21,732 bases of DNA from a virus: positions 1 through 21,732 of IMG/VR virus record IMGVR_UViG_3300042545_002269; one strand, given 5' to 3'. The notes under the pieces were generated by a model, which saw nothing but the letters and a program-made list of their open reading frames with translations, ran no database searches and had not been told where the DNA came from. Each line of letters begins with the position of its first letter. Position 1 is the first letter of the stretch. Position numbers and translations under genes: made by a program. This document shows, one piece after another, positions 1,390-17,928 of this stretch.

Positions 1390-2772
1390 ATGCAACAATT
1401 TTTTTATGACCAACAAATACGCCGTTTCTTGCTGCAATTTACCAGAATGTTCAGTAATTTCAGTGTGGAATATGGAAGAGACAACAGCGATACTGCTACC
1501 TTAATACGTGTGCCTGTCAGGTACGGAGACTCTACTCGTCAGGCACAAACAATTTTGCAAAACAACTCTGCCAATTCAATGCCGTCGACTCCCTTGATGA
1601 CCTTTTATATTACAGCACTGGAATATGACAGACCCAGAATACAAGACCCCACACATGTGAGCAAGCTACAGGTACGTCAGCGTTATTATGACACTGCCAC
1701 TGATTCTTATGAAACTACCCAAGGAAATGCCTTTACTATAGAACGCTTAATGCCGGTTCCGTATAACCTGTCGATTGCGTTGGATTTATGGACATCAAAT
1801 ACCAACCAAAAGTTTCAATTAATCGAACAGATTGCCACGTTATTCAATCCCAGTTTAGAAATACAAAGCACAGATAATTTTCTTGACTGGACCAGTCTCA
1901 GTGTAGTATACTTGGATGGTGTGACGTGGAGTAGTCGTACCATACCACAAGGAACAGAAAATCCCATTGATATTGCTACTATGAAGTTTAGCATGCCTAT
2001 CTGGATATCCAGTCCTGCAAAGGTGAAAAAATTAGGAGTTGTTGAGCGTATCGTTGCTTCAATCTTTGATGCACAAGGTGACGCCAACGAAGCCATTACC
2101 AACAACGATTTGTTGTTGGGTACCAGACAACTGTTGACTCCGTTTGATTATCAAGTGTTGCTGATAGGCAATAAATTACAAGCATTGAAATACAGTGCTG
2201 TGGTTGACGAACCCAATTCATCAACTGATGCTCCAAATAACCCTCCCAGCAACGAATTTTGGCCAGCTATACTTGACATGTATAGTGGATTCAGACCTGG
2301 AATATCACAAATTAGATTAGATAATCAATGGGGTACTGATGACCAGGTGATTGGCACTGTCACTGTCGACCCTACCGACGAAAGATTTTTACTGTTTGAT
2401 GTTGATGTAGACACTATACCGCAAAACACTATACCGGCAGTTAATGCTGTAATTGATCCTTTATTGAGCGGACCCGGAACAGGATTACCAGTGGCCACAA
2501 CAGGACAACGGTATCTCATACTGAATGACATCGGTAATGTCAATAATACACAACCCAGTTCGGCCTGGGGTGGTGTGGTAGCAAAAGCAAATGACATTAT
2601 TGAATATGATGGCACAGACTGGATTGTGACATTTGGCAGTACTACCAATACCGCAAATATTCAATATGTAACCAACATCACTACTGATTTACAATATCTG
2701 TGGACAGGATCTCAATGGGTCAAAAGTTACGAAGGTCTTTATCCGGGGGGCGAATGGAGTCTTGTGCTTTGA
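1390..2772 (+). CDS. 15: gp15 tail-sheath stabiliser / tail completion protein, with C-terminal extension
   Basis: Homologue of T4 gp15, the hexameric terminator ring that caps the finished tail tube and sheath and gives the head its docking surface. The N-terminus MQQFFYDQQIRRF...MFSNFSVEYGR matches the T4 pattern MFGYFYNSSFRRY...LFSNIQIKR. It is followed by the same LIRVPVRYG strand, the PYNLSIALDLWT strand (residues ~124-135), FQLIEQIATLFNP (142-154) and a MKFSMPIWISSP strand near 198-209. T4 gp15 is about 272 aa; this protein is 460 aa. The extra ~200 C-terminal residues are rich in T, N and D and contain small Trp motifs (EYDGTDW at ~405, LWTGSQW at ~437) like those of phage fibre proteins. 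The ATG at 1390 follows the gp14 stop closely with a poor Shine-Dalgarno, suggesting translational coupling. The last 19 nt overlap the Nudix gene. Confidence 0.85.
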   Translation: MQQFFYDQQIRRFLLQFTRMFSNFSVEYGRDNSDTATLIRVPVRYGDSTRQAQTILQNNSANSMPSTPLMTFYITALEYDRPRIQDPTHVSKLQVRQRYYDTATDSYETTQGNAFTIERLMPVPYNLSIALDLWTSNTNQKFQLIEQIATLFNPSLEIQSTDNFLDWTSLSVVYLDGVTWSSRTIPQGTENPIDIATMKFSMPIWISSPAKVKKLGVVERIVASIFDAQGDANEAITNNDLLLGTRQLLTPFDYQVLLIGNKLQALKYSAVVDEPNSSTDAPNNPPSNEFWPAILDMYSGFRPGISQIRLDNQWGTDDQVIGTVTVDPTDERFLLFDVDVDTIPQNTIPAVNAVIDPLLSGPGTGLPVATTGQRYLILNDIGNVNNTQPSSAWGGVVAKANDIIEYDGTDWIVTFGSTTNTANIQYVTNITTDLQYLWTGSQWVKSYEGLYPGGEWSLVL

Positions 2773-3194
2773 CCGCAGTGGGTGTATGGTTTTATGCGTA
2801 CGATACACAACGCTATCTATATCTCATGCGTAACGATTCTAAATATCCTGGAACATGGGGATTGCCCGGAGGCAAGTGCGAAGCCGGGGAAACCTTATTA
2901 GAAAGTATCGAACGAGAATGCTGCGAAGAATTAGGTTCCTTTCCTGACTATGTAAAGTTGTTGCCATTAGACCGGTTTACCAGTCCCGACGGTGCTTTCA
3001 GTTATCATACTTTTTTCTGCTGTGTGGCACAGGAATTTCAACCGGTTTTGAATGAGGAACACTTGGGTTATGCTTGGATTGATTCAGTCGCATGGCCTAA
3101 ACCTATGCACCCAGGATTATGGAATACGGTAAACTTCGATACTATTAAAGAAAAAGTTGAGATTATAAAAAGTTCTGTTCACACATCGCAATGA
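2754..3194 (+). CDS. Nudix hydrolase (MutT-like)
   Basis: Nudix-fold pyrophosphohydrolase of 146 aa. The Nudix box GX5EX7REUXEEXGU is complete: G40, E46, then R54-E55, E58-E59 and G61 (GKCEAGE ... RECCEELG), giving the metal-binding glutamates of an active enzyme. The preceding GTWGLPGG is typical of MutT/RppH-type members. Substrate is not evident; phage Nudix proteins act on nucleoside polyphosphates, ADP-ribose or RNA 5' ends. ATG 2754 was chosen because it follows a G-rich Shine-Dalgarno and puts the first strand (ALTAVGVWFY) at the N-terminus; in-frame ATG/GTG-type starts further upstream would add unstructured residues. The gene overlaps the end of gp15 by 19 nt, so it is probably translated from the same message. 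It converges on the minus-strand gene ending at 3179, with a 16-nt overlap of the two 3' ends. Confidence 0.88.
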   Translation: MESCALTAVGVWFYAYDTQRYLYLMRNDSKYPGTWGLPGGKCEAGETLLESIERECCEELGSFPDYVKLLPLDRFTSPDGAFSYHTFFCCVAQEFQPVLNEEHLGYAWIDSVAWPKPMHPGLWNTVNFDTIKEKVEIIKSSVHTSQ

Positions 3195-3844
3195 CTTACA
3201 AACTCGCGATACTTCATAGTAGTAACATTGCGATTGTTACGCCATTGATCTGGCATGTTTGCTTCGACACCCACCAGTATAAAATTAGTTAAATTGTAGG
3301 CTTGAAATACATCGTTGATCTGTGTATGGTGTCCGGCTGTAAGATGCGGTGTACTATTGTTGTATCCTAATAGAAATACTTCAGAATGCCCATCAAACGC
3401 AGCCAAATATACGGCTGCTGCAAAATGATTTATCGGTGGAGTATACGGAATCAAATAAAAATTCTTAGGATATCTGATACAATTCTTGGCATCAGTGTAT
3501 ACTACATTTTCAATTGAATAACTTTGTTGTTGAATTGATTCTAATTCGTAGCGATTAGTACTGACAAAAAAATCAAATTTCATATCAGTCCATAAAGAAC
3601 CAGAGCCGTATGTTTGCAAACGTTTCTTACCTAATAATCCACCTTTGTGTCTTTGCAATCGGCGGTAATCAAATAGCTCTACATCACACCCACTGCCAAT
3701 TACAGCAGCGCGACCACTGATGTGATAATTTTCAATAGCATTGGGTATCCATTCTCGATCTTGTTGTTTAGATCCGTTGGTCCATCGATTTTGAGTAATT
3801 ACAAATTCGCCAATATAATCTTTTCGATAGTTGGGCTGGATCAT
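3179..3844 (-). CDS. Rossmann-like protein of unknown function, paralogue of the 194-aa protein at 12982-13566
   Basis: 221 aa, not assigned to a named family. It has a predicted strand-turn AAVIGSG (~46-52) like a nucleotide-binding loop, a FFVSTNRYE segment (~92-100), NHFAAAVYLAAF (139-150) and a buried strand VFLLGYN (156-162). The same landmarks occur in the same order in the 194-aa protein encoded at 12982-13566 (VLGNG, LVSTDR, PIAAGIACL, IYLLGFD), so the two are paralogues. The layout recalls MptE/DUF115-like or sialyltransferase-like Rossmann proteins, but the resemblance is too weak to assign a reaction. Its ATG overlaps the stop of the 620-aa fibre gene as ATGA (3841-3844), so it is translationally coupled to that fibre. 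A role in modifying or assembling the fibre is inference from position only. Confidence 0.75.
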   Translation of the reverse strand: MIQPNYRKDYIGEFVITQNRWTNGSKQQDREWIPNAIENYHISGRAAVIGSGCDVELFDYRRLQRHKGGLLGKKRLQTYGSGSLWTDMKFDFFVSTNRYELESIQQQSYSIENVVYTDAKNCIRYPKNFYLIPYTPPINHFAAAVYLAAFDGHSEVFLLGYNNSTPHLTAGHHTQINDVFQAYNLTNFILVGVEANMPDQWRNNRNVTTMKYREFVSHCDV

Positions 3845-5703
3845 AACCGCCCTACTAATATCTCAATTGTGCCTTCTGTGTCACTGTCAAAGTCTTGCAA
3901 ACTTTTACCAATTATCGATCCAGGTTTGTATAAGTTATCATGCAATTTAGTTGCCACTCCTCGGAGTCTACTTGAGCATAATAAATCACCGCGGTTAATC
4001 TTTCCTACTACACGGCACGGAATACGTCCCAACAATGCCACTTCCACAGCAGTGTCAGATTTTTCCCCTGAATTCATTATTAATGCAGGATTAGTTGATA
4101 CTACTCCAGCAATTCTTGTGCTGGCATAATCAACCGTGGCAGTGACTTCGGCCAGGCCACCAATTTCCAATACAGTGCCGGGCGGATACAAAACGTCGGC
4201 TACATATTTTTCTGCAACGTCAGCATATTGTGCACTGGCTGCTTTGGCAAATACAGTATTAAAATATGCTGTGCTTGATCCAATGTTACCTACGCCGTTG
4301 GCATTGCTATTGACAATGTTTCCACCAGTAATTGTACCGGTACCGGCTGATATATTACCAGCAGTAATATTTCCTGTTGCACTAAATGCACCAGCATATG
4401 TTAACGGTCCTGTGCCTGCTCGACCAAGTTTGCCTGTGGCATCACTGTTACCAAATACAATGTAAGCATTGGCACCATTTTGCTGTCCTTTAATACCAAC
4501 AGTATCAGCTATGTTGATATCACCAATCCAGGCATCGTCGCCAACTTTGAAGTTTTGCCCAGATCCATTGAGTGTACCAGCAAAAGTACCGGCAGTCACT
4601 GTGTTAAGAACTTTATCGTATGTAAAGTTGGCATTGCCGCCAAAGACACCAGCATCATTAAACTGCACATTGGTATTTGCTCCGCCTGGAGTTCCGCCGC
4701 CGCCACCGGCTAATAGGTTTGTTCCTACTCCGTCTGCTGCTGCTGTTAGGTCAATAAAAGCACCTTTGGCGTTGTTGCCTTGAAAAAATCTTAATTTGTT
4801 TTGGAATATGTCAATGGTTACTTGACCAATTAAACTGGTATTAGTAGCAGGTATACCAAGATTAACTTGTCCTCCTTCGTCGCCAGAAGATTGTGTTGAC
4901 CATAGTTCTTTTCCAAACAAATCTCCAGTGGCTCTTACTACTCCAGTGGTGTTGATATTGCCACCTGTAATGTTACCCGTGGCAATTACTTGAGCACCAG
5001 TATTTAAATTACTACCAGTTACGTTACCAGTAGCACTTATAACACCAGTTACATATTCACCAGTTGTGGCAAACACAGCTACGTTGCTGGTGCCACCGAC
5101 GCCAATACTGACGTTACCACCAGAACTCACTACATTAACATTGCTTGTACCATTTGATATAGAGTTTAGACTGATACCGGTCACACCAATGGTAACAGTT
5201 TTACTGGTGTTGTTTCCGAAAATGCTGATGTTGTCACCAGCTGTAAATGTTACACTATCACCAACACTGGTGGCCAAGACCGCGGTACTGTTGGCATAAA
5301 TGTTACCAAAAGCAAATGCTGAATTTTGTTCGAACACCAATGCAGTGGTGCCAATAATGATGGGATTATTTGTTGTCAGCTTCCACTGTGTATCTTTGTA
5401 GACATCACCTTCGGTGACCATGATAATAAGGCCTGCCTGCAATTCACCTGTGGCATTGCCATCATTTGCACGTACCCAAGTGCCAGATGATCCTGCACCC
5501 ACTGTTTGTACTTCGTATATTCCGTTTTCGCTTCCGGGATCATTTGCTGATACTAATACTCTATCGCCTGTTACTAAGCTGACACCATCGACTGTGGCCG
5601 GAGCTCCGCCAGATAAAGTAATATCAGATGTTGTGATCACACGAACAGCTTGTTTATAGTCTATGTCTGATATCTGTTCGGCACGTATGCGTGTTAATCC
5701 CAT
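3841..5703 (-). CDS. Tail fibre / adhesin protein, 620 aa, with YADxAEKY C-terminal domain
   Basis: Probable tail-fibre or receptor-binding protein. Order of parts: a short N-terminal attachment segment (MGLTRIRAEQISDID); a globular domain at ~17-127 (KQAVRVITT...GDRVLV...NGIYEV...WVRANDG...KLTT..PIIIGTTALVF), common in phage fibres; a Gly/Asn/Thr-rich shaft (~130-265) with GNITGGN-type turns; a middle domain with a poly-Gly linker and NVQFNDAGVFGGN (~332-360); more shaft; and a C-terminal domain from ~480 (FNTVFAKAASAQYADVAEKY...IAGVVSTNP..IMNSG...) to the end. That C-terminal domain also ends the 1566-aa fibre. It resembles, in its AGVVSTNP strand, the peptidase-G2-type intramolecular chaperone domains of phage appendages, but self-cleavage is not shown. 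Shine-Dalgarno AGGAAAG lies 4-5 nt before the ATG. A GCTAAATA late-promoter-like octamer is at 5725-5732. Confidence 0.85.
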   Translation of the reverse strand: MGLTRIRAEQISDIDYKQAVRVITTSDITLSGGAPATVDGVSLVTGDRVLVSANDPGSENGIYEVQTVGAGSSGTWVRANDGNATGELQAGLIIMVTEGDVYKDTQWKLTTNNPIIIGTTALVFEQNSAFAFGNIYANSTAVLATSVGDSVTFTAGDNISIFGNNTSKTVTIGVTGISLNSISNGTSNVNVVSSGGNVSIGVGGTSNVAVFATTGEYVTGVISATGNVTGSNLNTGAQVIATGNITGGNINTTGVVRATGDLFGKELWSTQSSGDEGGQVNLGIPATNTSLIGQVTIDIFQNKLRFFQGNNAKGAFIDLTAAADGVGTNLLAGGGGGTPGGANTNVQFNDAGVFGGNANFTYDKVLNTVTAGTFAGTLNGSGQNFKVGDDAWIGDINIADTVGIKGQQNGANAYIVFGNSDATGKLGRAGTGPLTYAGAFSATGNITAGNISAGTGTITGGNIVNSNANGVGNIGSSTAYFNTVFAKAASAQYADVAEKYVADVLYPPGTVLEIGGLAEVTATVDYASTRIAGVVSTNPALIMNSGEKSDTAVEVALLGRIPCRVVGKINRGDLLCSSRLRGVATKLHDNLYKPGSIIGKSLQDFDSDTEGTIEILVGRL

Positions 5704-5774: not shown

Positions 5775-8700
5775 CTATACCCGGCCGATAACTACCTCAA
5801 TAACACCGTCTTGACCATCGAAGTCAGCAAGTGCTTTACCAATTACTGATCCCACAGCAGGGTCGGCTTCTGCTCTGGCACGACCGTTGCTGGTTGCCAC
5901 CATCATGTCGCCTTTGCGTACAAGTCCTGTTACTTTAACTGGCACACGACCTTGCAGAGCAACAGGAACCACGTGATCACCTGTTTGTCCTGAGTTCATC
6001 AAGTAGCTGGGGTTAGTACTTACTACACCAGCAACTCTACGGCAAGCATCTTCGGCGCACATTGTGACTTCTTTGGAACCACCAAAACACACCACTGTAC
6101 CTGGTTCAATAATTTGATCAGCTTCGTACATTTCGGCCAAGTCAGCATACTGTGCTGATGTTGCTTTGGCAAATACAGTATTGAAGTAAGTGGTTGCTGT
6201 ACCAATGTTACCGACTCCATTGGCTTGACCATTTTCGATACCTGCACTGGTAATATTAACAATTGTGGCTCCGCCGACATTTGCACGTATATTACCACCG
6301 CTTGAAACAACTGCTACACTGGATGTTCCACTAAAGATTTGTGATGTATCAATACTCGAACTGGCAATAGTTGCTGGCGTTGTTCCGTCTGGTTGAAAGA
6401 ACGCAATACTGTTGCCAGTCGATGCTTTCATTATTACGTTACCAAGGTATAAGCTTGTGCCAGATAGATATAGATCTTTCCATCGAGCAGTAGTTGTTCC
6501 CAAATCATATGTTACGTTTGCAGTTGGAACTAAATTACCAGTCACATCAAATTGAGCAGCAGTTGCAGACCCTTGTATCACTGCATTACCGCTACTATTT
6601 TGTATGCCAACTATAGTAGTTGTGGTGGTTAATAATCTGACATCAATTACGTCTGTAGATTCAGGTGCTTCTGTGAATAAAAGATTTGCTCCCGATACTG
6701 AATAAGCTGTAGTAGGTTGTTGCACAACACCGTTAATGGCCACTATAGTGGCAGCAGTTGTACTACTCTCACTTAAACTAAATTCAGTTTGTACTCCATT
6801 ACCAACAAATTCATCTGCTGTAATAACAGTAAAGACTGAGCCTGCTGTTGCCCATGAATCACTGTCGTAAAATTCCAAAGTGTCAGCTGTGGTATTGAAT
6901 CGCACCATGCCCGTGACAGGCACATCTGGACGGTCACTGGTTGAACCAACTGGAATAATAATTGAATTAGTAGTGCCAATCTTGAGTGCTGCGTTTGTGG
7001 TCGGTGTACCTGTTCCAATCAACACAGTATCGCTACCAGCATCAACAACCAACAAGTTGGCAATAGTATCGCCAGACACTATGAGGTTGACATCGGCACC
7101 TGCTGAGTTAATCAGTACTTGTCCGTTTGTGCCAGTAATTGTGTCGCCACTGATACGTATATTACCCAAATTGGCTTGTCCGGTGGTAATAATATTACCG
7201 CCTGTGATATTACCAGTTGCTACTACTTGTGCACTTGTATTTAGGTTGCCGCCTGAAATATTTCCACTGGCACTGACAGTGGCAGAATTTACAGCTGATG
7301 TAATAACAGCATTACCGCCAACCAAGTTACCACTGGCACTGACAGTAACACCTTCTACTGATGCAGCACTAATTAAATTGCCACCGTTGATATTACCTGA
7401 AGCACTTACTGTGGCAGAATTTACAGCTGATGTAATAACAGCATTACCACCTACCAAGTTACCACTGGCACTGACAGTAACACCTTGTACCAATGCAGCA
7501 CTTATTACATTGCCGCCTGAAATATTTCCAGTACCAGATACAATTCCGCTGCCAAATAAAATATTTCCACCTGTGACGTTACCACTGGCACTGACAGTAG
7601 CAGAATTTACTGCTGAAGTAATGTTAGCGTTACCACCTACCAAGTTACCACTGGCACTGACTGTAACACCTTCTACTGATGCAGCACTAATTAAATTGCC
7701 ACCGTTGATATTACCTGAAGCACTTACTGTGGCAGAATTTACAGCTGAAGTAATGTTGGCATTGCCACCTACCAAGTTGCCACTTGCTGATACAGTAACA
7801 CCTTGCACTAATGCAGAACTTATTACATTGCCGCCAGATACGTTACCCGAAGCACTCAATGTAACGCCTTGTACTAAAGCACTTGATATTACATTACCGC
7901 CGTCAATGTTACCTGAAGCACTTACTGTGGCAGAATTTACAGCTGATGTAATAACAGCATTACCACCTACCAAGTTACCACTGGCACTGACAGTAACGCC
8001 TTGTACCAATGCAGCACTAATTAAGTTGCCGCCTGAAATATTTCCACTGGCACTGACAGTGGCAGAATTTACAGCTGAAGTAATGTTGGCATTACCACCT
8101 ACTAAATTACCGGTGGCAGAAATATCAGCACCTGTTACTGAGCCGGTTACGCTGAGGCTTGTACCAGTGGCAGCACCAATGTTTGGTGTTGTTAAATTTG
8201 CACCTGCTTTGACAATAATGTTACCACCAATATCAAATGCAGTGGTGTTATTATCAACTTTGGCATTAAATGTTTGGGCAACTAATACCAAACCAGCTGA
8301 TGTATTTGCTGAATAAACTTGGCTTTGGCTGAATTGTGCAAACGCAATATTGCTTGTGCCAAAGGTGATAGTTCCTGTAGGTGAATCGACCACATAAGCC
8401 GAACCCAGATTAATGTTGCCACTGCTAACGAAGAAGTAATCGTTTAGACTTAACTCTTCTGCACTGTTTGGACCGTATTCGTCTGCGTCGGTAGATCTAA
8501 CAATTACTGTTGCGTTGCTCCAGGTGTAAATACCGTTCAATACTGCATTGCCTTCATTCTTGACCAAGATTCTGGTGCCCAGAGTCTGCACGTTAGCTGT
8601 GTCAATTAAATTGAAGCTACCAGTTGTGGTTATAGTTGCACCAATACCGTTGCCAGCACCATTGGGCTGTGCATAGGTTATAGTACCGCCTGTGGTAGTG

Positions 8701-10475
8701 GCCAAATTTGCGGTGGTTGCTACCAACACTGCTTCGTGATAGGCCAGGCCTGATGACACCATATTGTCAACATACAACTTAGATGCTGCATCTTGATCTT
8801 GCTCAGGATAAGCTACACCGTTGATGTAGTCATTTGACAATACAATATTACCAGCTGGCGAAAGATTAATGTCACCAGTGACTGTACTAACCGTCAACGC
8901 ACCGCTGGGGTTGGTCAATGTGGCTGTGTTTACATTTCCACCATTGACATTACCTGTGGCACTTACTGTGGTGCCTTGTACCAATGCAGCACTAATTAAA
9001 TTACCACCAGTGACGTTACCTGAGGCCGACACAGTTGCTGAATTAACAGCATTAGTGATATTGGCATTGCCACCTACCAAGTTGCCACTGGCACTGACTG
9101 TAACGCCTTGTAACAATGCTGCACTGATTAAATTTCCACCGTTGACATTGCCACTGGCACTGACAGTGGCAGAATTTACAGCTGAAGTAATGTTGGCATT
9201 GCCACCTACCAAGTTGCCACTGGCACTGACTGTAACGCCTTGTACCAACGCAGAACTTATTACATTACCACCTTCAATGTTACCAGTGCCAGATACAATT
9301 CCGCTGCCAAATAAGACATTTCCGCCTGTGACGTTACCCGAAGCACTGACAGTGGCAGAATTTACTGCCGAAGTAATGTTGGCATTTCCGCCAACCAAGT
9401 TACCACTGGCACTGACAGTAACACCTTCTACTAATGCACTTGATATTACGTTTCCACCGCTGATATTACCTGAAGCACTGACAGTAGCAGAATTTACAGC
9501 TGAAGTAATGTTGGCATTGCCACCTACCAAGTTGCCACTTGCTGATACAGTAACGCCTTCTACCAACGCAGAACTTATTACATTACCACCAGAAATATTT
9601 CCACTGGCACTTACTGTGGCAGAATTTACTGCCGAAGTAATGTTGGCATTTCCGCCAACCAAGTTACCACTTGCTGATACAGTGACACCTTCTACCAACG
9701 CAGAACTTATTACATTACCGCCCAATATGTTACCAGTACCGCTTACAATACCCGACCCGTATAAGACATTGCCACCAGTGATGTTACCGCTTGCCGAAAC
9801 AGTGGCCGAGTTAACAGCTGATGTAATAACAGCATTGCCGCCAACCAAGTTACCACTTGCTGATACAGTGACACCTTGTATCAAAGCTGCACTAATTAAG
9901 TTTCCGCCAGAGACATTGCCAGTAGATGAAACTACACCACCAGTTAATAAATTGCCACCTTGAACATTTCCTGTTACTGTTAAATTACCCACTACATTTC
10001 CAACTGTAATGTTGGCAAAGGTCGTGTCACCAGTGATGTTTGCAGTTTGAGCAAAAAAGTTGCCAACTTTTAAATTGGCAAAACTGGTTACAGTAATGGT
10101 GGTGTTGGAGATTTCGCTGCTGGTAAATACAGCTTCAAATTCTTGTGCGTTTTCTTTCCAAACAAATGCAATGTTTTCACTTGTGCCGCGTTTGCCAATA
10201 AAACCAATGTCAACTGTGGGAGATCCTGTTTGACCAGTGGCCAATACAATAAGCGGATCTTCTACCAATAAATCAATAGTGTCAATGGCAGTGACGTTAC
10301 CTTGAACTGTAAGGTTGCCAGTGATTGTTAAATCTGAGCCGTATGTTAGGTTGTTGGAGATTTTCTGCGAAGTGATCGAATAATTCTGAAGTTTAGCGGC
10401 TGCATTGACACCGTAATATACGTTACCAGAAATTGCATCAGTTATTTGATTGTTATTGATACGGGTAATAGCCAT
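5775..10475 (-). CDS. Giant repetitive tail fibre / adhesin, 1566 aa
   Basis: Very long fibre protein. Residues 1-160 form an N-terminal module (ITGNLTVQGNVT...VEDPLIVLATGQ...IGFIGKRGT) shared with the 205-aa protein at 12362-12979. Residues ~165-520 are a first repeat array, 570-720 a globular domain (HEAVLVATT...TRILVKN...NGIYTW...) like the N-domain of the 620-aa fibre, and 785-1100 a second array. Next come an RP-P..G.VRFNT box (~1180-1210) and an FVGNG.QTEFSL...INGVVQQP..AYSV domain (~1222-1282), both shared with the 352- and 132-aa proteins. The end (~1418-1566) is FNTVFAKATSAQYADLAEMY...VAGVVSTNPSYLMNSG. The arrays consist of 22-residue coils with a GN-x-x-GGN turn, as expected of a beta-solenoid or trimeric beta shaft. 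The start has a GGAGAGAT Shine-Dalgarno and a GGTAAATA octamer upstream. A terminator follows. Receptor binding is inferred from architecture. Confidence 0.9.
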   Translation of the reverse strand: MAITRINNNQITDAISGNVYYGVNAAAKLQNYSITSQKISNNLTYGSDLTITGNLTVQGNVTAIDTIDLLVEDPLIVLATGQTGSPTVDIGFIGKRGTSENIAFVWKENAQEFEAVFTSSEISNTTITVTSFANLKVGNFFAQTANITGDTTFANITVGNVVGNLTVTGNVQGGNLLTGGVVSSTGNVSGGNLISAALIQGVTVSASGNLVGGNAVITSAVNSATVSASGNITGGNVLYGSGIVSGTGNILGGNVISSALVEGVTVSASGNLVGGNANITSAVNSATVSASGNISGGNVISSALVEGVTVSASGNLVGGNANITSAVNSATVSASGNISGGNVISSALVEGVTVSASGNLVGGNANITSAVNSATVSASGNVTGGNVLFGSGIVSGTGNIEGGNVISSALVQGVTVSASGNLVGGNANITSAVNSATVSASGNVNGGNLISAALLQGVTVSASGNLVGGNANITNAVNSATVSASGNVTGGNLISAALVQGTTVSATGNVNGGNVNTATLTNPSGALTVSTVTGDINLSPAGNIVLSNDYINGVAYPEQDQDAASKLYVDNMVSSGLAYHEAVLVATTANLATTTGGTITYAQPNGAGNGIGATITTTGSFNLIDTANVQTLGTRILVKNEGNAVLNGIYTWSNATVIVRSTDADEYGPNSAEELSLNDYFFVSSGNINLGSAYVVDSPTGTITFGTSNIAFAQFSQSQVYSANTSAGLVLVAQTFNAKVDNNTTAFDIGGNIIVKAGANLTTPNIGAATGTSLSVTGSVTGADISATGNLVGGNANITSAVNSATVSASGNISGGNLISAALVQGVTVSASGNLVGGNAVITSAVNSATVSASGNIDGGNVISSALVQGVTLSASGNVSGGNVISSALVQGVTVSASGNLVGGNANITSAVNSATVSASGNINGGNLISAASVEGVTVSASGNLVGGNANITSAVNSATVSASGNVTGGNILFGSGIVSGTGNISGGNVISAALVQGVTVSASGNLVGGNAVITSAVNSATVSASGNINGGNLISAASVEGVTVSASGNLVGGNAVITSAVNSATVSASGNISGGNLNTSAQVVATGNITGGNIITTGQANLGNIRISGDTITGTNGQVLINSAGADVNLIVSGDTIANLLVVDAGSDTVLIGTGTPTTNAALKIGTTNSIIIPVGSTSDRPDVPVTGMVRFNTTADTLEFYDSDSWATAGSVFTVITADEFVGNGVQTEFSLSESSTTAATIVAINGVVQQPTTAYSVSGANLLFTEAPESTDVIDVRLLTTTTTIVGIQNSSGNAVIQGSATAAQFDVTGNLVPTANVTYDLGTTTARWKDLYLSGTSLYLGNVIMKASTGNSIAFFQPDGTTPATIASSSIDTSQIFSGTSSVAVVSSGGNIRANVGGATIVNITSAGIENGQANGVGNIGTATTYFNTVFAKATSAQYADLAEMYEADQIIEPGTVVCFGGSKEVTMCAEDACRRVAGVVSTNPSYLMNSGQTGDHVVPVALQGRVPVKVTGLVRKGDMMVATSNGRARAEADPAVGSVIGKALADFDGQDGVIEVVIGRV
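7176..8123 (-). repeat. Second tandem-repeat array in the 1566-aa fibre (66-bp units)
   Basis: In-frame tandem repeats encoding residues ~785-1100. Fifteen GN-x-x-GGN turns occur, mostly 22 residues (66 bp) apart. Coils of type GNLVGGNA(N/V)ITSAVNSATVSAS often alternate with type GN(I/V)xGGN(V/L)IS.A.V.GVTVSAS, giving a 44-residue (132-bp) higher-order unit. One spacing is 18 residues (FGSGIVSGTGN variant) and the last is 17. Confidence 0.95.
8916..9983 (-). repeat. First tandem-repeat array in the 1566-aa fibre (66-bp units)
   Basis: In-frame tandem repeats encoding residues ~165-520. Seventeen GN-x-x-GGN turns occur with the same 22-residue coil and the 44-residue alternating super-unit. 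Three consecutive super-units (residues ~263-394) are nearly identical in protein sequence. Two spacings are shortened to 18 residues by the (Y/F)GSGIVSGTGN variant; the first spacings (18, 21) are also irregular. DNA copies differ mostly at third positions. Confidence 0.95.
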
Positions 10476-10551: not shown

Positions 10552-11610
10552 TTAGTTGAGATCAATCCAACCACTGCCAGTGTAGCCTTGGAACTTGGTG
10601 CCCGTGGCATTAAACACCATCATTCCCGCAACAGGAGAAGCGATTGCTGCATCTCTAACAGTGCTGTTGGCATAGACTGCCAACTGTATGGCTGTGATTG
10701 CAGAGATATTATTACCAACAATATTTCCAGTTGCAGTGATATTACCAGTGGCATTTATTGTTCTACCGCTGCTGGCTTGCAACGTGATATTACCAGAAGA
10801 GTCAGCTCGAACAATAGCATTTCCGTTGGAATTAGTAATATAATCAGTGCTGCTTACACCTGCCAAAAATCTTATTTGTATAGTATCAGTAACAATCGGA
10901 GTTGTTGTGAATGTAATATCAGTGCCAGCCACTGTGTAATCTATGTCAGGTGTTTGTCCAACACCGTTTACAGTAACCAAAATGCTGGCCGCAGTAGCAG
11001 TTTGATCCAAAGTAAATTGGCTGGCTACTCCGTTGGGATCAATAGTTTGATTAAGAATAGTGGTAGTGCCGCCTGGGATTAATTCATCCCAACCAAACCC
11101 GTCATAAACTTCGGCATAACTGGTGTCGCTATTGAACCTAATTGTGCCGGCAGGCGGGCTAACAGGTCTGTCGCCCTGATCCCCAGCAGGTAATGCCAAT
11201 CCAGAAACTGTATCAATAAAAACTAAACTGTTTCCGGTCGGCGATAATGTAATGTTTCCCGGTGTTACTGATGTTGAAATTGTGGTATTGCTAAAAGTAA
11301 AATTACCAATATTGGCATTTGCAGCCACATTATCTACGTAAATTTTGGTAGCAGCGTCCGAGTTAGCAATCGGCTCCAACAAGTTATTGATATTCACGTT
11401 GCCGGCATCAATGTTACCGACCAGATTAATTGTGACATTTCCCACTGTAAAGTTACCAGCTACTTCAAGAGCAGACGCAGGAGTTGAGGTCAAAATTCCA
11501 ACACGATTGTTATTGACATCAAAGTATATTAAGTTGCCTTGAATGGCCAGATTGGAGCCACGCCGGAGATTGTCTGCCAGTATGTTGCCGGAAATCTTGT
11601 TTATTGCCAT
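10552..11610 (-). CDS. Fibre / virion structural protein, 352 aa
   Basis: Probable fibre component built from the same modules as its neighbours. The N-terminus MAINKISGNILADNLRRGSNLAIQGNL is an attachment-type segment with a GN-rich strand region. SDAATKIYVDN at ~84-93 matches DAASKLYVDN in the 1566-aa fibre. The box GDRPVSPPAGTIRFN...VYDGFGW is at ~146-174. A domain at ~186-250 (VASQFTLDQ...VTVNGVGQTPDIDYTV...DTIQIRFL) recurs in the 1566- and 132-aa proteins. A short GN-turn shaft follows (~285-303), then a last element with MMVFNATGTKFQGYTGSGW. It lacks the YADxAEKY C-terminal domain. The start is supported by an AAAGGACA Shine-Dalgarno and a CATAAATA promoter octamer at 11629-11636. The 1566-aa gene follows 76 nt downstream. 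Exact place in the virion is unknown. Confidence 0.8.
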   Translation of the reverse strand: MAINKISGNILADNLRRGSNLAIQGNLIYFDVNNNRVGILTSTPASALEVAGNFTVGNVTINLVGNIDAGNVNINNLLEPIANSDAATKIYVDNVAANANIGNFTFSNTTISTSVTPGNITLSPTGNSLVFIDTVSGLALPAGDQGDRPVSPPAGTIRFNSDTSYAEVYDGFGWDELIPGGTTTILNQTIDPNGVASQFTLDQTATAASILVTVNGVGQTPDIDYTVAGTDITFTTTPIVTDTIQIRFLAGVSSTDYITNSNGNAIVRADSSGNITLQASSGRTINATGNITATGNIVGNNISAITAIQLAVYANSTVRDAAIASPVAGMMVFNATGTKFQGYTGSGWIDLN

Positions 11611-11639: not shown

Positions 11640-12038
11640 TTAAGTCGAGCTGTGAATTACACTTATGGGTTCACCACTGGGTGGTGCTGATGTAAAAGTA
11701 ATATCAAACCCACCGTCGACTGTGTAAGCTGTTGTAGGGTCTTGATAAATTGATCCAACAAAAACAATAATTTGCGTCGTTTGGCTTTCTACTATACTCA
11801 TGGTAAAAATTGTTGTACTACCGTCGCCTGTAAACGAATCCACAGTATAATCAACAGAACCGGCAGCATTTAGCTCAATAAATTGTGTCCCATTGAAATA
11901 TTCAACCAACCCTGTATCAGTGTTGTATCGTATGAGCCCAAATTTTGGAGACAAAGGGCGTGTGGCAGACCCACCAGCTGGCAACACCACACCAGAGGAT
12001 CCAGATTGTAAACGACGATTTTTTACAAAATATCCCAT
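11640..12038 (-). CDS. Small virion structural protein, 132 aa
   Basis: Probable minor structural or fibre-associated protein. Residues 1-20 (MGYFVKNRRLQSGSSGVVLP) form a basic leader. Residues 27-56 carry the box RPLSPKFGLIRYNTDTG...EYFNGTQF, also found in the 352- and 1566-aa fibres. Residues 63-128 hold the VDSFTGDGSTTIFTM...IYQDPTTAYTV...FDITFTSAPP domain shared with the same two proteins. It therefore looks like a minimal two-module version of the larger fibres. Its ATG overlaps the stop of the 104-aa gene (TAATG at 12036-12040), so the two are translationally coupled. I know of no enzymatic motif in it. Confidence 0.78.
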   Translation of the reverse strand: MGYFVKNRRLQSGSSGVVLPAGGSATRPLSPKFGLIRYNTDTGLVEYFNGTQFIELNAAGSVDYTVDSFTGDGSTTIFTMSIVESQTTQIIVFVGSIYQDPTTAYTVDGGFDITFTSAPPSGEPISVIHSST

Positions 12039-12981: not shown

Positions 12982-13566
12982 TTAGAGATCCTTTGATGTA
13001 TTTATTCGCAAAACAAAGTCCCCAATCGTGATAGATTGTAAATTTGTCAAGGTTCGAAAATCTGGGATATCAGCAGTGGTATCGCCCGAAACCCTTATAA
13101 ATTCCACAGAAGGAAAATCACGTACGACTGTGCTTAATTGTCTAATCCAGTTGCCAGTAAAGGTAGGGTTAGCATCTGCAGATTTGTAAAATTCACTACC
13201 AGCATAAACATTATTAAATTTACCCACCACTGTTGGACCCATGTCAAACCCTAACAAATAAATTTTGCGATTTAAATCCAAGCAAGCAATACCGGCGGCA
13301 ATAGGACCAGAGCTGAATCCGTGATATTGCTTTGGCACTGATTGTGCACCTGATCCTGGACTGGGTCTACGTGTGTAAAATCTATTCTTTTGTGCGTATC
13401 CGCTTTCTTGTATTGTGGTGCTGATGGGGCGGTCAGTAGACACTAACACATGAGGTGTATGAGTACGGTACAAGGCATTACAGCCATAAACTGTGCCTAA
13501 TTTAAGCAAGATATCAACATCGATATGCTGTCGGCTGATGCCGTTTCCTAATACAAAAGCAGTCAT
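12982..13566 (-). CDS. Rossmann-like protein of unknown function, paralogue of the 221-aa protein at 3179-3844
   Basis: 194 aa, function not recognised. It starts directly with a strand and glycine turn TAFVLGNG (2-9), then GTVYGCNALYR (24-34), HVLVSTDRP (39-47), SGPIAAGIACLDL (86-98) and IYLLGFDMG (102-110). The order and spacing parallel the 221-aa protein at the other end of the fibre island. The LGNG...YGCNALYR...D pattern suggests a nucleotide- or nucleotide-sugar-binding fold of the glycosyltransferase/MptE-like kind; no reaction can be assigned. It sits between the MGRP protein gene and the 205-aa fibre-related gene. Its Shine-Dalgarno GGGAGGA lies inside the 3' arm of a terminator-like hairpin (13566-13598), so its expression may be reduced or regulated. 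Confidence 0.75.
   Translation of the reverse strand: MTAFVLGNGISRQHIDVDILLKLGTVYGCNALYRTHTPHVLVSTDRPISTTIQESGYAQKNRFYTRRPSPGSGAQSVPKQYHGFSSGPIAAGIACLDLNRKIYLLGFDMGPTVVGKFNNVYAGSEFYKSADANPTFTGNWIRQLSTVVRDFPSVEFIRVSGDTTADIPDFRTLTNLQSITIGDFVLRINTSKDL
12999..13006 (-). promoter_or_regulatory. T4-type late promoter (AATAAATA)
   Basis: The minus strand reads AATAAATA, one change from TATAAATA, 19 nt before the ATG of the 205-aa gene and within the last codons of the 194-aa gene. It would drive the 205-104-132 aa operon. Confidence 0.7.
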
Positions 13567-14219: not shown

Positions 14220-14303
14220 TTTTTCTTTTCCTTTAAAAGTTAGGCGTTCTAGGCCTACGCGGTGGGATACCGCATAAAACGCAACCATTGCGTTGTATAG
14301 ATA

Positions 14304-14311
14304 TATTTATG
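14304..14311 (-). promoter_or_regulatory. T4-type late promoter (CATAAATA)
   Basis: The minus strand reads CATAAATA, one change from TATAAATA. It lies in the divergent gap between the MGRP gene and the plus-strand glycosyltransferase gene, 84 nt before the MGRP start codon. Confidence 0.65.
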
Positions 14312-14336
14312 AAATAAATCCGTATCTAATACACAC

Positions 14337-14344
14337 AGTAAATA
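14337..14344 (+). promoter_or_regulatory. Possible late promoter (AGTAAATA) abutting a start codon
   Basis: The plus strand reads AGTAAATA, ending 5 nt before the ATG at 14350. It shares the TAAATA core with the minus-strand sites but differs at the first two positions. It is the only candidate before this isolated plus-strand gene. Similar TAAATA strings occur by chance inside plus-strand genes (for example near 592 and 2839). Confidence 0.4.
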
Positions 14345-14349
14345 TCCGT

Positions 14350-15483
14350 ATGGACACAGAACTGTTAATATTGCAAGGCAACACACATAGAGAACAGCAT
14401 CAACCGGATCAGGCTTTGGCCTGTTATGCACAGGCCTTTGTTAACGATTATACCTCAGCAGGTGCTTTCAACAATTACGGTAATGTGCTTAGAGAAATGG
14501 GATTTCCTGATCGTGCACAACCATTTTTAGAACATGCTATCCGTTTAGATCCCAGTAACGAAACTGCACGTTTTAATTTGGCTGTGTGTTATCTGTTACA
14601 AGGCAATTATCAACAGGGGTGGACTGCTTACGAAGACCGCTGGCGATTTGAACACTTAAAAGGTACACTGCCGCAATTGCCACAACCTCGTTGGACTGGG
14701 CAAGATCTCAAAGACAAGACTATTCTTGTCATCGGCGAACAGGGACTGGGCGATACTATACAGTTTGTGAGATTTATTCTCAATCTCAAAGAGTCTGGTG
14801 CTCGCGTTGTATTGGCAGTTGCTGGTGCCATGGTCACACTATTTGGACCTGACACAATTGCGTTCAACGATGCTTTGCCTGAATATGATTACTGGACTCC
14901 TATTATGAGCATTCCAGGCATGTTGGGAATCACCTTAGAAAATTTAAACAGTCCGTTGAGTTATATTTCACCCGATGCAACCGGTATAAAGCAATGGCAA
15001 AAAAGACTGGGTGTTAAGAAAAAACTTCGAATAGGGTTCAGCTGGGCTGGACGTAGAGATACTTGGATACATCAACACAAGTCAGTTCCGTTCGATCAAA
15101 TAGTCAAATTGATAAAATCTAATCCGCAGCACGAATGGGTAAATTTACAAATTGACGCCGATCAAGCAGAATCTGCAATTCTAATACAATTGGGTTGTGC
15201 AACATATCCAGGTACTATCTCCTGTATGGCAGATTCGGCTGCCTTAATATCGTGCATGGATGTGATTGTCAGTGTGGATACTGCAGTAAGTCACTTGGCA
15301 GCAGCGATGGGTCGACCCACTTGGATCATGCTGAATCATTACGGAACAGATTGGCGATGGCTATTAAATCGTGCAGATAGCCCGTGGTATCCTACTGCAA
15401 GATTATTTAGGCAATCCACAATTGGCAACTGGGACAGTGTGGTAAACAAGATCGCACTGCACCTAAATCTGTTTAAAATTTAA
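14350..15483 (+). CDS. TPR-containing glycosyltransferase (GT9/heptosyltransferase-like)
   Basis: 377 aa in two parts. Residues ~3-100 are about three tetratricopeptide repeats (ALACYAQAFVNDY, AFNNYGNVLREMG, A..FLEHAIRLDP, ARFNLAVCYLLQGN). Residues ~112-377 are a GT-B-type glycosyltransferase domain of the kind found in bacterial TPR proteins related to ADP-heptose:LPS heptosyltransferases. Landmarks are GEQGLGDTIQFVRF (129-142), GFSWAG (229-234), the D-x-A-A-L-I-x-x-x-D-V-I-V-x-V-D-T-A-V-x-H-L-A segment (~295-317, the expected nucleotide-sugar-binding region), and DWRWLL..DSPWYPTARLFRQ (334-355). It is the only plus-strand gene between 3195 and the right edge. Its 3' end overlaps the converging gene by 4 nt. 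An earlier in-frame TTG (14293) is possible, but no Shine-Dalgarno supports either start. Acceptor unknown; capture from a bacterium is likely (inference). Confidence 0.85.
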   Translation: MDTELLILQGNTHREQHQPDQALACYAQAFVNDYTSAGAFNNYGNVLREMGFPDRAQPFLEHAIRLDPSNETARFNLAVCYLLQGNYQQGWTAYEDRWRFEHLKGTLPQLPQPRWTGQDLKDKTILVIGEQGLGDTIQFVRFILNLKESGARVVLAVAGAMVTLFGPDTIAFNDALPEYDYWTPIMSIPGMLGITLENLNSPLSYISPDATGIKQWQKRLGVKKKLRIGFSWAGRRDTWIHQHKSVPFDQIVKLIKSNPQHEWVNLQIDADQAESAILIQLGCATYPGTISCMADSAALISCMDVIVSVDTAVSHLAAAMGRPTWIMLNHYGTDWRWLLNRADSPWYPTARLFRQSTIGNWDSVVNKIALHLNLFKI

Positions 15484-17007: not shown

Positions 17008-17251
17008 TGTCTTTTGAGTGATCTTCCACTTCACGATGTAACTCTTCAGCAGTCCAACCAGATTCTGTCAAGATGTGTATGGCATTTATAAACAAACTAA
17101 ACACAGTTGCCGTGTAGTCAAATCCCAGTTCGTTGCCTTCTTTTTCGTATAGCTGTTCTAATGCTTGATCAGCAGCAGCGTTGCATACGTCTAAATCAAA
17201 ATGGTATACAGTACCATCTGCTAATACTTCTACAATTTCATTGTCTTTCAT
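17003..17251 (-). CDS. Small acidic protein of unknown function, 82 aa
   Basis: Begins MKDNEIVEVLADGTVYHFDLD, then a helical region with LEQLYEKEGNELGFDYTATVFSLFINAIHILTESGWTAEELHREVEDH. It is strongly acidic, and the central amphipathic helix (~47-60) looks like a packing or dimer surface. Function unknown. ATG 17251 was chosen over an upstream in-frame start near 17290 because it has the Shine-Dalgarno AAAGGAA and because ATGA (17248-17251) overlaps it with the stop of the homing endonuclease, a normal coupling arrangement. The upstream residues instead belong to the endonuclease zinc motif read in another frame. If the endonuclease inserted here, this gene may once have been transcribed directly after gp23. 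Confidence 0.7.
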   Translation of the reverse strand: MKDNEIVEVLADGTVYHFDLDVCNAAADQALEQLYEKEGNELGFDYTATVFSLFINAIHILTESGWTAEELHREVEDHSKDS

Positions 17252-17928
17252 TTTGTTTCCTTTAAGAATCGACAGTTGGCACCATGCCAACGTACATAAG
17301 TGTTTACAGCTATCATTTGATTACAATGTGGACACAGTTTCTTTTCGCGTTTGCTACCACGTACAGCATCTGCTTTCTTTTGTATTGTTTCAGCTGACTG
17401 TTTACGACCAGTGGCTTTTTCTCGTTGTTTAGATTTTGCTTCGTCTGTATGCTTTTTATTGTACATACCGTTTCGTTCACCAGCATGGGCTTTGCTCATA
17501 TTATCAAGCCATTCTTGCGAAAACGGCTTTCTTTTTCTTCCAGTAATTGCTGCTTTTTGATTGGCTTTTTCATGCGGCGGTTGAACTCGTCCTTTGTTGA
17601 GATTAGAGATATATCTTGAAAATTCTTCTCTCAGCGTATTATACACCCTGCTGGTAATCTTAGATGCATAACGTGTTTGATACGGGCCTTCTGCTTTCAT
17701 AATATACATAGCATTGATCATTTTATATCTTGCTTCGCCTGTATACATTTTAGTTAGAAGCCAATGACATACAAAGTGCTCGCGGGCTGTTAAATCTACT
17801 AAATTGTCAGCATCATCTGATCCACCAAGACTACGTGGTACTACATGATGACGTTCAGAATAGCCGTCTAATGTTCTGCTACGTGCTCGATCTGTTATAT
17901 TTTGGTACCAAGTTTGATATTTGTTCAT
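17248..17928 (-). CDS. HNH homing endonuclease with NUMOD3 and zinc-finger motifs
   Basis: 226 aa, free-standing homing endonuclease. The HNH motif lies near the N-terminus: ERHHVVPRSLGG (25-36, catalytic and metal-binding His), N42 in DNLVDLTAREH and H51 in HFVCH. A NUMOD3-type DNA-binding segment GERNGMYNKKHTDEAKSKQREKATGRK spans ~150-176. A C-terminal zinc-binding site reads C199-P-H-C202 ... H215-G-A-N-C219. All parts expected for activity are present. It follows the gp23 terminator and has its own CATAAATA promoter 5 nt before the ATG, with no Shine-Dalgarno, so its message should be nearly leaderless. Homing endonucleases commonly sit next to conserved phage genes they target; gp23 is the obvious candidate here (inference). 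Confidence 0.9.
   Translation of the reverse strand: MNKYQTWYQNITDRARSRTLDGYSERHHVVPRSLGGSDDADNLVDLTAREHFVCHWLLTKMYTGEARYKMINAMYIMKAEGPYQTRYASKITSRVYNTLREEFSRYISNLNKGRVQPPHEKANQKAAITGRKRKPFSQEWLDNMSKAHAGERNGMYNKKHTDEAKSKQREKATGRKQSAETIQKKADAVRGSKREKKLCPHCNQMIAVNTYVRWHGANCRFLKETK

Follow-up and report, generated by a model that had tools for sequence, protein, structure and literature searches.

The two long repeat arms of the phage fibre proteins described here nearly always change length together. We consider it probable, if some way from certain, that each chain forms a giant antiparallel hairpin, in which arm 1 leads outward, the central domain makes the turn and arm 2 leads back. A little more cautiously, we lean towards a shaft with hundreds of residues in each leg, in which register is kept by compensatory, mirrored insertions and deletions such that arm 1 equals arm 2 plus a constant. 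With the same slight inclination, we would regard the length of this hairpin shaft as a trait that evolves freely under one strict rule, an architecture of which the papers that we found give no description. The proposal draws on the observed length matching, on paired length changes and on one clean pair of mirrored gaps.

According to our model, the chain would begin at the N-terminal base domain and run outward through arm 1, which holds coil array 1; the central domain, as the distal tip, would turn it round, and arm 2, with array 2, would bring it back to the base, where the C1-C3 domains lie. The arms would pack against each other nearly residue by residue, and the shaft could therefore shift in length only with a near-equal gain or loss in both arms at roughly the same height. 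We infer that the protein trimerises, that the central domain marks the tip end and that this domain binds the receptor.

Domain layout and coil arrays of the fibre protein

The window, that is, the whole 21.7-kb stretch of DNA analysed here, is a fragment of a large aquatic T4-like tailed phage. It encodes a gp23-type capsid protein, a prohead protease and a gp15-type sheath stabiliser, structural genes of a tailed phage among which the fibre gene lies. Its main fibre gene is organised as follows.

5775-10475, minus strand: fibre protein gene P0001, 1,566 aa, an open reading frame from ATG
10035-10475, minus strand: N-terminal domain, residues 1-147, starting with MxITRIxNNQI
8853-10034, minus strand: arm 1, residues 148-541, 394 aa, with coil array 1 of 17 GN..GGN coils (at about 9971-8889)
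8145-8852, minus strand: central (mid) domain, residues 542-777, family A3
7143-8144, minus strand: arm 2, residues 778-1111, 334 aa, with coil array 2 of 15 GN..GGN coils (at about 8111-7149)
6612-7142, minus strand: C1 domain, residues 1112-1288, family A5
5778-6611, minus strand: C2 and C3 C-terminal domains, residues 1289-1566

The C-terminus of P0001 matches phrog_22593 and phrog_19602, the latter annotated as a tail fiber protein. A Pfam search of the protein returned no family above the cut-off and a sequence search of the PDB with the whole protein no match up to E 1; searched against the PDB singly, the N domain gave nothing meaningful by sequence, and the best that C1 gave was weak, partial similarity to a depolymerase. 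The profile of the N domain (A4) is common to many phage fibre proteins, and this domain is probably the virion anchor and the base of the fibre. We propose that C1 lies back at the base beside it, and that the central domain forms the distal tip and the turn of the hairpin. The C3 domain is common to many relatives.

The arrays contain exactly 32 GN..GGN motifs by regular-expression count, 17 within residues 169-508 and 15 within residues 789-1088, just as the first-pass annotation had counted by eye; shuffled versions of P0001 held 0.05 on average and 2 at most (2,000 shuffles). Its description of a nearly constant 22-residue spacing is borne out by 25 of the 30 intervals inside the arrays, the remaining ones measuring 17 or 18 residues. 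The two coil types that it had joined into a 44-residue unit are likewise both present, each 22 residues long: type A, GNLVGGN(A)(N/V)ITSAVNSATVSAS, in 12 copies and type B, GN..GGN(V/L)IS(S/A)A(L/S)V(Q/E)GVTVSAS, in 13. They mostly alternate, with one B-B junction and with 17/18-residue coils interspersed. There is also a third level of repetition, in that an 18-residue coil of array 1 recurs at residues 230 and 380 of the protein, 150 residues apart, which amounts to a 450-bp tandem.

The arms are matched in length across relatives

Arm 1 was taken as the stretch, in amino acids, between the N domain and the central domain, and arm 2 as that between the central domain and C1. Among 45 distinct relatives with N, central and C1 domains, arm 1 ranges from 76 to 719 aa and arm 2 from 5 to 648 aa, with r = 0.99 and a slope of about 1, values that include seven proteins whose central-domain match is split or doubled and whose figures were taken by hand from the match table. 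Arm 1 exceeds arm 2 by about 63 aa, and 41 of the 45 proteins fall in a band of 45-95 aa; the four exceptions have offsets of -19 (L107), 1 (L305), 22 (L188) and 30 (L224). The larger set used for this test, after a first measurement with an unexpected outcome, was gathered in three additional scans of the viral collection. All relatives are metagenomic assemblies, and single values may err; collapsed repeats would, however, blur the length rule, not create it.

For 38 distinct proteins, r was 0.991 and the Theil-Sen slope 0.997 (95% CI 0.967-1.019), and the median absolute deviation was 7.5 aa, as opposed to 130 (minimum 49) in 20,000 random pairings. The set is diverse, with a median anchor identity of 0.56. 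In 19 disjoint nearest-relative contrasts, the median change in length was 138 aa and the median mismatch between the arms 5 aa (correlation 0.988). Examples of such paired changes in arm 1 and arm 2 are 131/131 (window against L015) and 166/166 (L218 against L220); others are 102/102 and 328/326. If all 133 related pairs with a length change are taken, which are not independent of one another, none has changes of opposite sign and 93 agree within 11 aa. As a negative control, the distance between C1 and C3 was measured in the same proteins and showed no correlation with arm length (r = 0.19, p = 0.29). The match is tighter when expressed in residues (median 1.7%) than in coil starts (10%, the latter from a crude regular expression).

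A second tip family, in which an N-like domain stands in place of the central domain, behaves more noisily (r = 0.84). Here, the arms are equal in 13 of 35 proteins (for example 359/359, 66/66 and 381/386), and in another 18 they are equal apart from about 50-105 aa added on one side; in L012 and L022 this surplus can be seen as an additional domain in arm 2.

The first-pass annotation had described a repetitive shaft whose length would differ among relatives in steps of one or two coils. The repetitive shaft and the strong length differences stand; independent arrays that change by one or two coils at a time are not supported in that form, as both arms shift equally. Two near-copies, L008 and L009, match the window at 100% identity across 18.5 kb and carry the same 32 copies. 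In the nearest distinct relative, L015, the N, central, C1 and C3 domains are 69-88% identical, the arms are longer and the coils have been swapped wholesale for a different, 21-residue type (TAASVVGG), and in L019 the arrays are almost absent.

We also noticed two fibre proteins of more than 3,000 aa (L062 and L025) with three or four central domains, some of which are regularly spaced with gaps of about 580-600 aa; these might be multi-hairpin fibres.

Signs of a mirrored register between the arms

Between L218 and L220, either arm shows a single clean gap of 166 aa; counted from the base, it spans 143-309 aa in arm 1 and 164-330 aa in arm 2. Because these distances from the base are approximately the same, whereas parallel coordinates would not coincide, the gaps are mirrored and not parallel. 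The residual offset of 21 aa equals one repeat unit in these proteins and is below the resolution of gap placement, which in repeats may slide by one unit. In this pair, related non-coil inserts are also present in both arms close to the base. Among the aligned pairs with length changes, L218/L220 is the only one with a single clean gap in each arm.

The main rival to the hairpin is a jointed leg, comparable with the long tail fibre of T4 and its half-fibres, in which the arms would lie end to end, with the central domain as the knee, and selection would have kept the segments equal to let the leg fold back on itself. Roughly equal arms are predicted by this arrangement too. What it does not require is agreement within about 5 residues or inserts and gaps that mirror each other, and we thus hold it to be unlikely.

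A broader sign of mirrored register comes from the non-coil (rare-residue) profiles of 34 proteins. With arm 2 reversed and both arms aligned at the base, the profiles correlate at 0.175, against a null of 0.004 +/- 0.054; this value was reached by 0 of 1,000 mismatched pairings, although the mean effect is small and the base alignment, like several other test choices, was picked post hoc, after inspection of examples. Parallel and tip-aligned comparisons of the arms were not significant. In the window itself, the first coils of arm 1 start at 22, 39, 61 and 83 residues from the base and those of arm 2 at 24, 41, 63 and 85, and the two arms stay 2-6 residues apart across 15 coils, a near-zero offset that depends on where the anchors are placed.

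These data also bear on the idea that one arm is a copy of the other, made by duplication or gene conversion, and that equal length merely follows from the copying. The arms of one protein do share their coil vocabulary, the coils of the window cluster together across phages, and the order of types is the same in window coils 7-15 and 22-30. However, the parallel colinearity expected of copying is not seen in the profile comparison, and in L037 the arms measure 381/386 despite an identity of 31% and different repeats. Moreover, the close pair L218/L220 changed equally at mirrored, not parallel, positions. We therefore disfavour arm copying and rate it as distinctly improbable.

Predicted fold of the arrays

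AlphaFold2 (AF2) modelled array 1 as a beta-solenoid with three strands per coil, at medium confidence (pLDDT 73.5, pTM 0.72) and as a monomer fragment, which cannot reveal contacts between the arms; the C-terminal region was modelled poorly (pLDDT 51). In Foldseek searches at E <= 0.001, the array model had no match in the PDB; a search of BFVD gave five, with low TM-scores and mostly to uncharacterised proteins. In its coil form the model resembles monomeric beta-solenoids such as the MpAFP RTX region, CsgA and Ag43, from which it differs in that absence of a PDB match. Given that AF2 over-predicts solenoids for repeat sequences (PMC11795689), the model lends little weight to a beta-solenoid. 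Taken at face value, it would nevertheless speak against the hairpin, as a monomeric solenoid of the array alone would not itself need matching at the level of residues.

The same model, together with the strong length variation among relatives, would suit an ordinary linear shaft of two independent solenoid or trimeric beta arrays that drift by recombination, which was the view of the first-pass annotation. Independent arrays would, however, not remain matched over 5-719 aa, and the paired changes contradict them, so that we find this view very hard to credit. Finally, a third component of phage-specific length, such as a partner fibre or a chaperone, could measure and so equalise both arms, and the adjacent gene indeed encodes another fibre that shares the C3 domain, but the mirror register favours direct pairing and the lengths of the next gene, at a glance, seemed not to follow arm length, which leaves this explanation with hardly any probability.

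Relation to known fibres and significance

In the tip of T4 gp37, composed of collar, needle and head, the path of the chain leads out and back. The tip is an elongated six-stranded antiparallel needle with receptor-specific sequence between two conserved flanks (PMC7291167; PMC9659904), the flanks being 60-120 residues long (PMC9659904), and iron is bound in it through HxH motifs (PMC6116203). Hence, gp37 provides a precedent for an antiparallel needle, but the arms of the P0001 family are far longer, up to about 700 residues, and consist of GN/GT coils. Neither array arm of P0001 contains a histidine, let alone an HxH iron-binding motif. Membership of the gp37 family by sequence was considered and rejected, the PDB search up to E 1 having returned no match.

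The central-domain family matches tail fiber gp9 of 23sh and the fibre orf22 of the solved PDB entry 9efk (E 1.3e-22); in the latter, residues 235-388 of 658 are homologous to the central domain and the arms are not matched. The 9efk entry contains 18 chains of orf22, which would fit six trimers. Parts of a report on marine phage tail fibres describe fibre-specific repeats, a conserved N-terminus and a variable C-terminus (PMC3909814); in those parts, length matching of two repeat arms is not described.

Should the hairpin hold, the build of the shaft could be read from sequence in a large, uncharacterised family of fibres of aquatic phages: the tip would be the domain flanked by equal arms, and both termini would lie together at the base. 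It would yield a length rule by which tip domains, which are probably receptor-binding, can be found in metagenomic fibres, as well as a natural example of intramolecular compensatory indels. It would also imply that AF2 monomer solenoids of such arrays may be incomplete.

Distribution and age of the coils

The pattern of three successive 22-residue coils was found in 39 viral stretches; in 84,980 cellular species there were two matches, both unrelated low-complexity G/N stretches. Three relatives (L022, L046 and L047) have an ordered B-A pair within arrays of 17-residue coils (GNVTGGNVTTAGVVSAT), and outside the window B occurs without a following A in 9 of 17 cases. In the window gene, the 44-residue pair has taken over. 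Other lineages possess a dominant coil type of their own, as observed for L015, L218, L067 and L010 (21-residue TAASVVGG, GDVEAAT-GTITDLDG and DNADITNGITAGTTITAT). Judged by sequence, coils look as if they were homogenised within each gene. Used as a protein or DNA query against phage records, the array had no match, perhaps owing to low-complexity filters, and LR745206, Syn33 and Phosso, which match P0001 outside the arrays, have no GN..GGN coils near the match.

Identity among copies at codon positions 1, 2 and 3 is 0.93, 0.93 and 0.58 for type A and 0.80, 0.89 and 0.55 for type B. Synonymous codon identity is 0.59 (A) and 0.54 (B), compared with 0.45 and 0.42 when codons are permuted, and ranges from 0.19 to 1.00 across copies; the coils at residues 833 and 1005 are identical in DNA. 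All 12 A coils and 11 of the 13 B coils of the window are closest to one another and not to the same coil elsewhere. This range, together with the closeness of the copies to each other, suggests that duplication or conversion went on after the split from relatives and that the copies are of mixed age, some very recent. The earlier reading of purifying selection after old duplications thus holds as regards the third-position differences and the constraint on amino acids, but not as regards age. Block structure at synonymous sites is slight: neighbouring coils correlate at r = 0.18, and half-coils and junctions hardly or not at all.

Neighbouring genes

Several genes and open reading frames around or across P0001 deserve mention.

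3841-5703, minus strand: second fibre gene, 620 aa, directly downstream of the main fibre gene
10552-11610 and 11640-12038, minus strand: adjoining small genes, each with a paralogue of the C1 domain
17248-17928, minus strand: NUMOD3/HNH gene adjoining the major capsid protein gene
6880-8316 and 8869-9963, plus strand: antisense open reading frames across both arrays, 478 and 364 aa

The second fibre starts with M-x-(I/L)-TRI...QI as does P0001, contains a few GN..GGN-like coils and has a C3 domain 43% identical to that of P0001; similar small genes come after the fibre gene in relatives. The product of 11640-12038 matches the T7 tail-fibre N-terminal domain (PF03906) below threshold, and the NUMOD3/HNH gene is probably a homing endonuclease. 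The antisense frames are probably open through the repeat period and not coding. Accessory genes are interspersed with the structural ones at 2700-3194 and 14293-15483 (plus strand) and at 3179-3844 and 12982-13566 (minus strand). Their products are a NUDIX hydrolase, a TPR and glycosyltransferase-9-like protein and a pair of short proteins, similar to each other by eye, of which one gives a weak sialyltransferase-like PHROG match.
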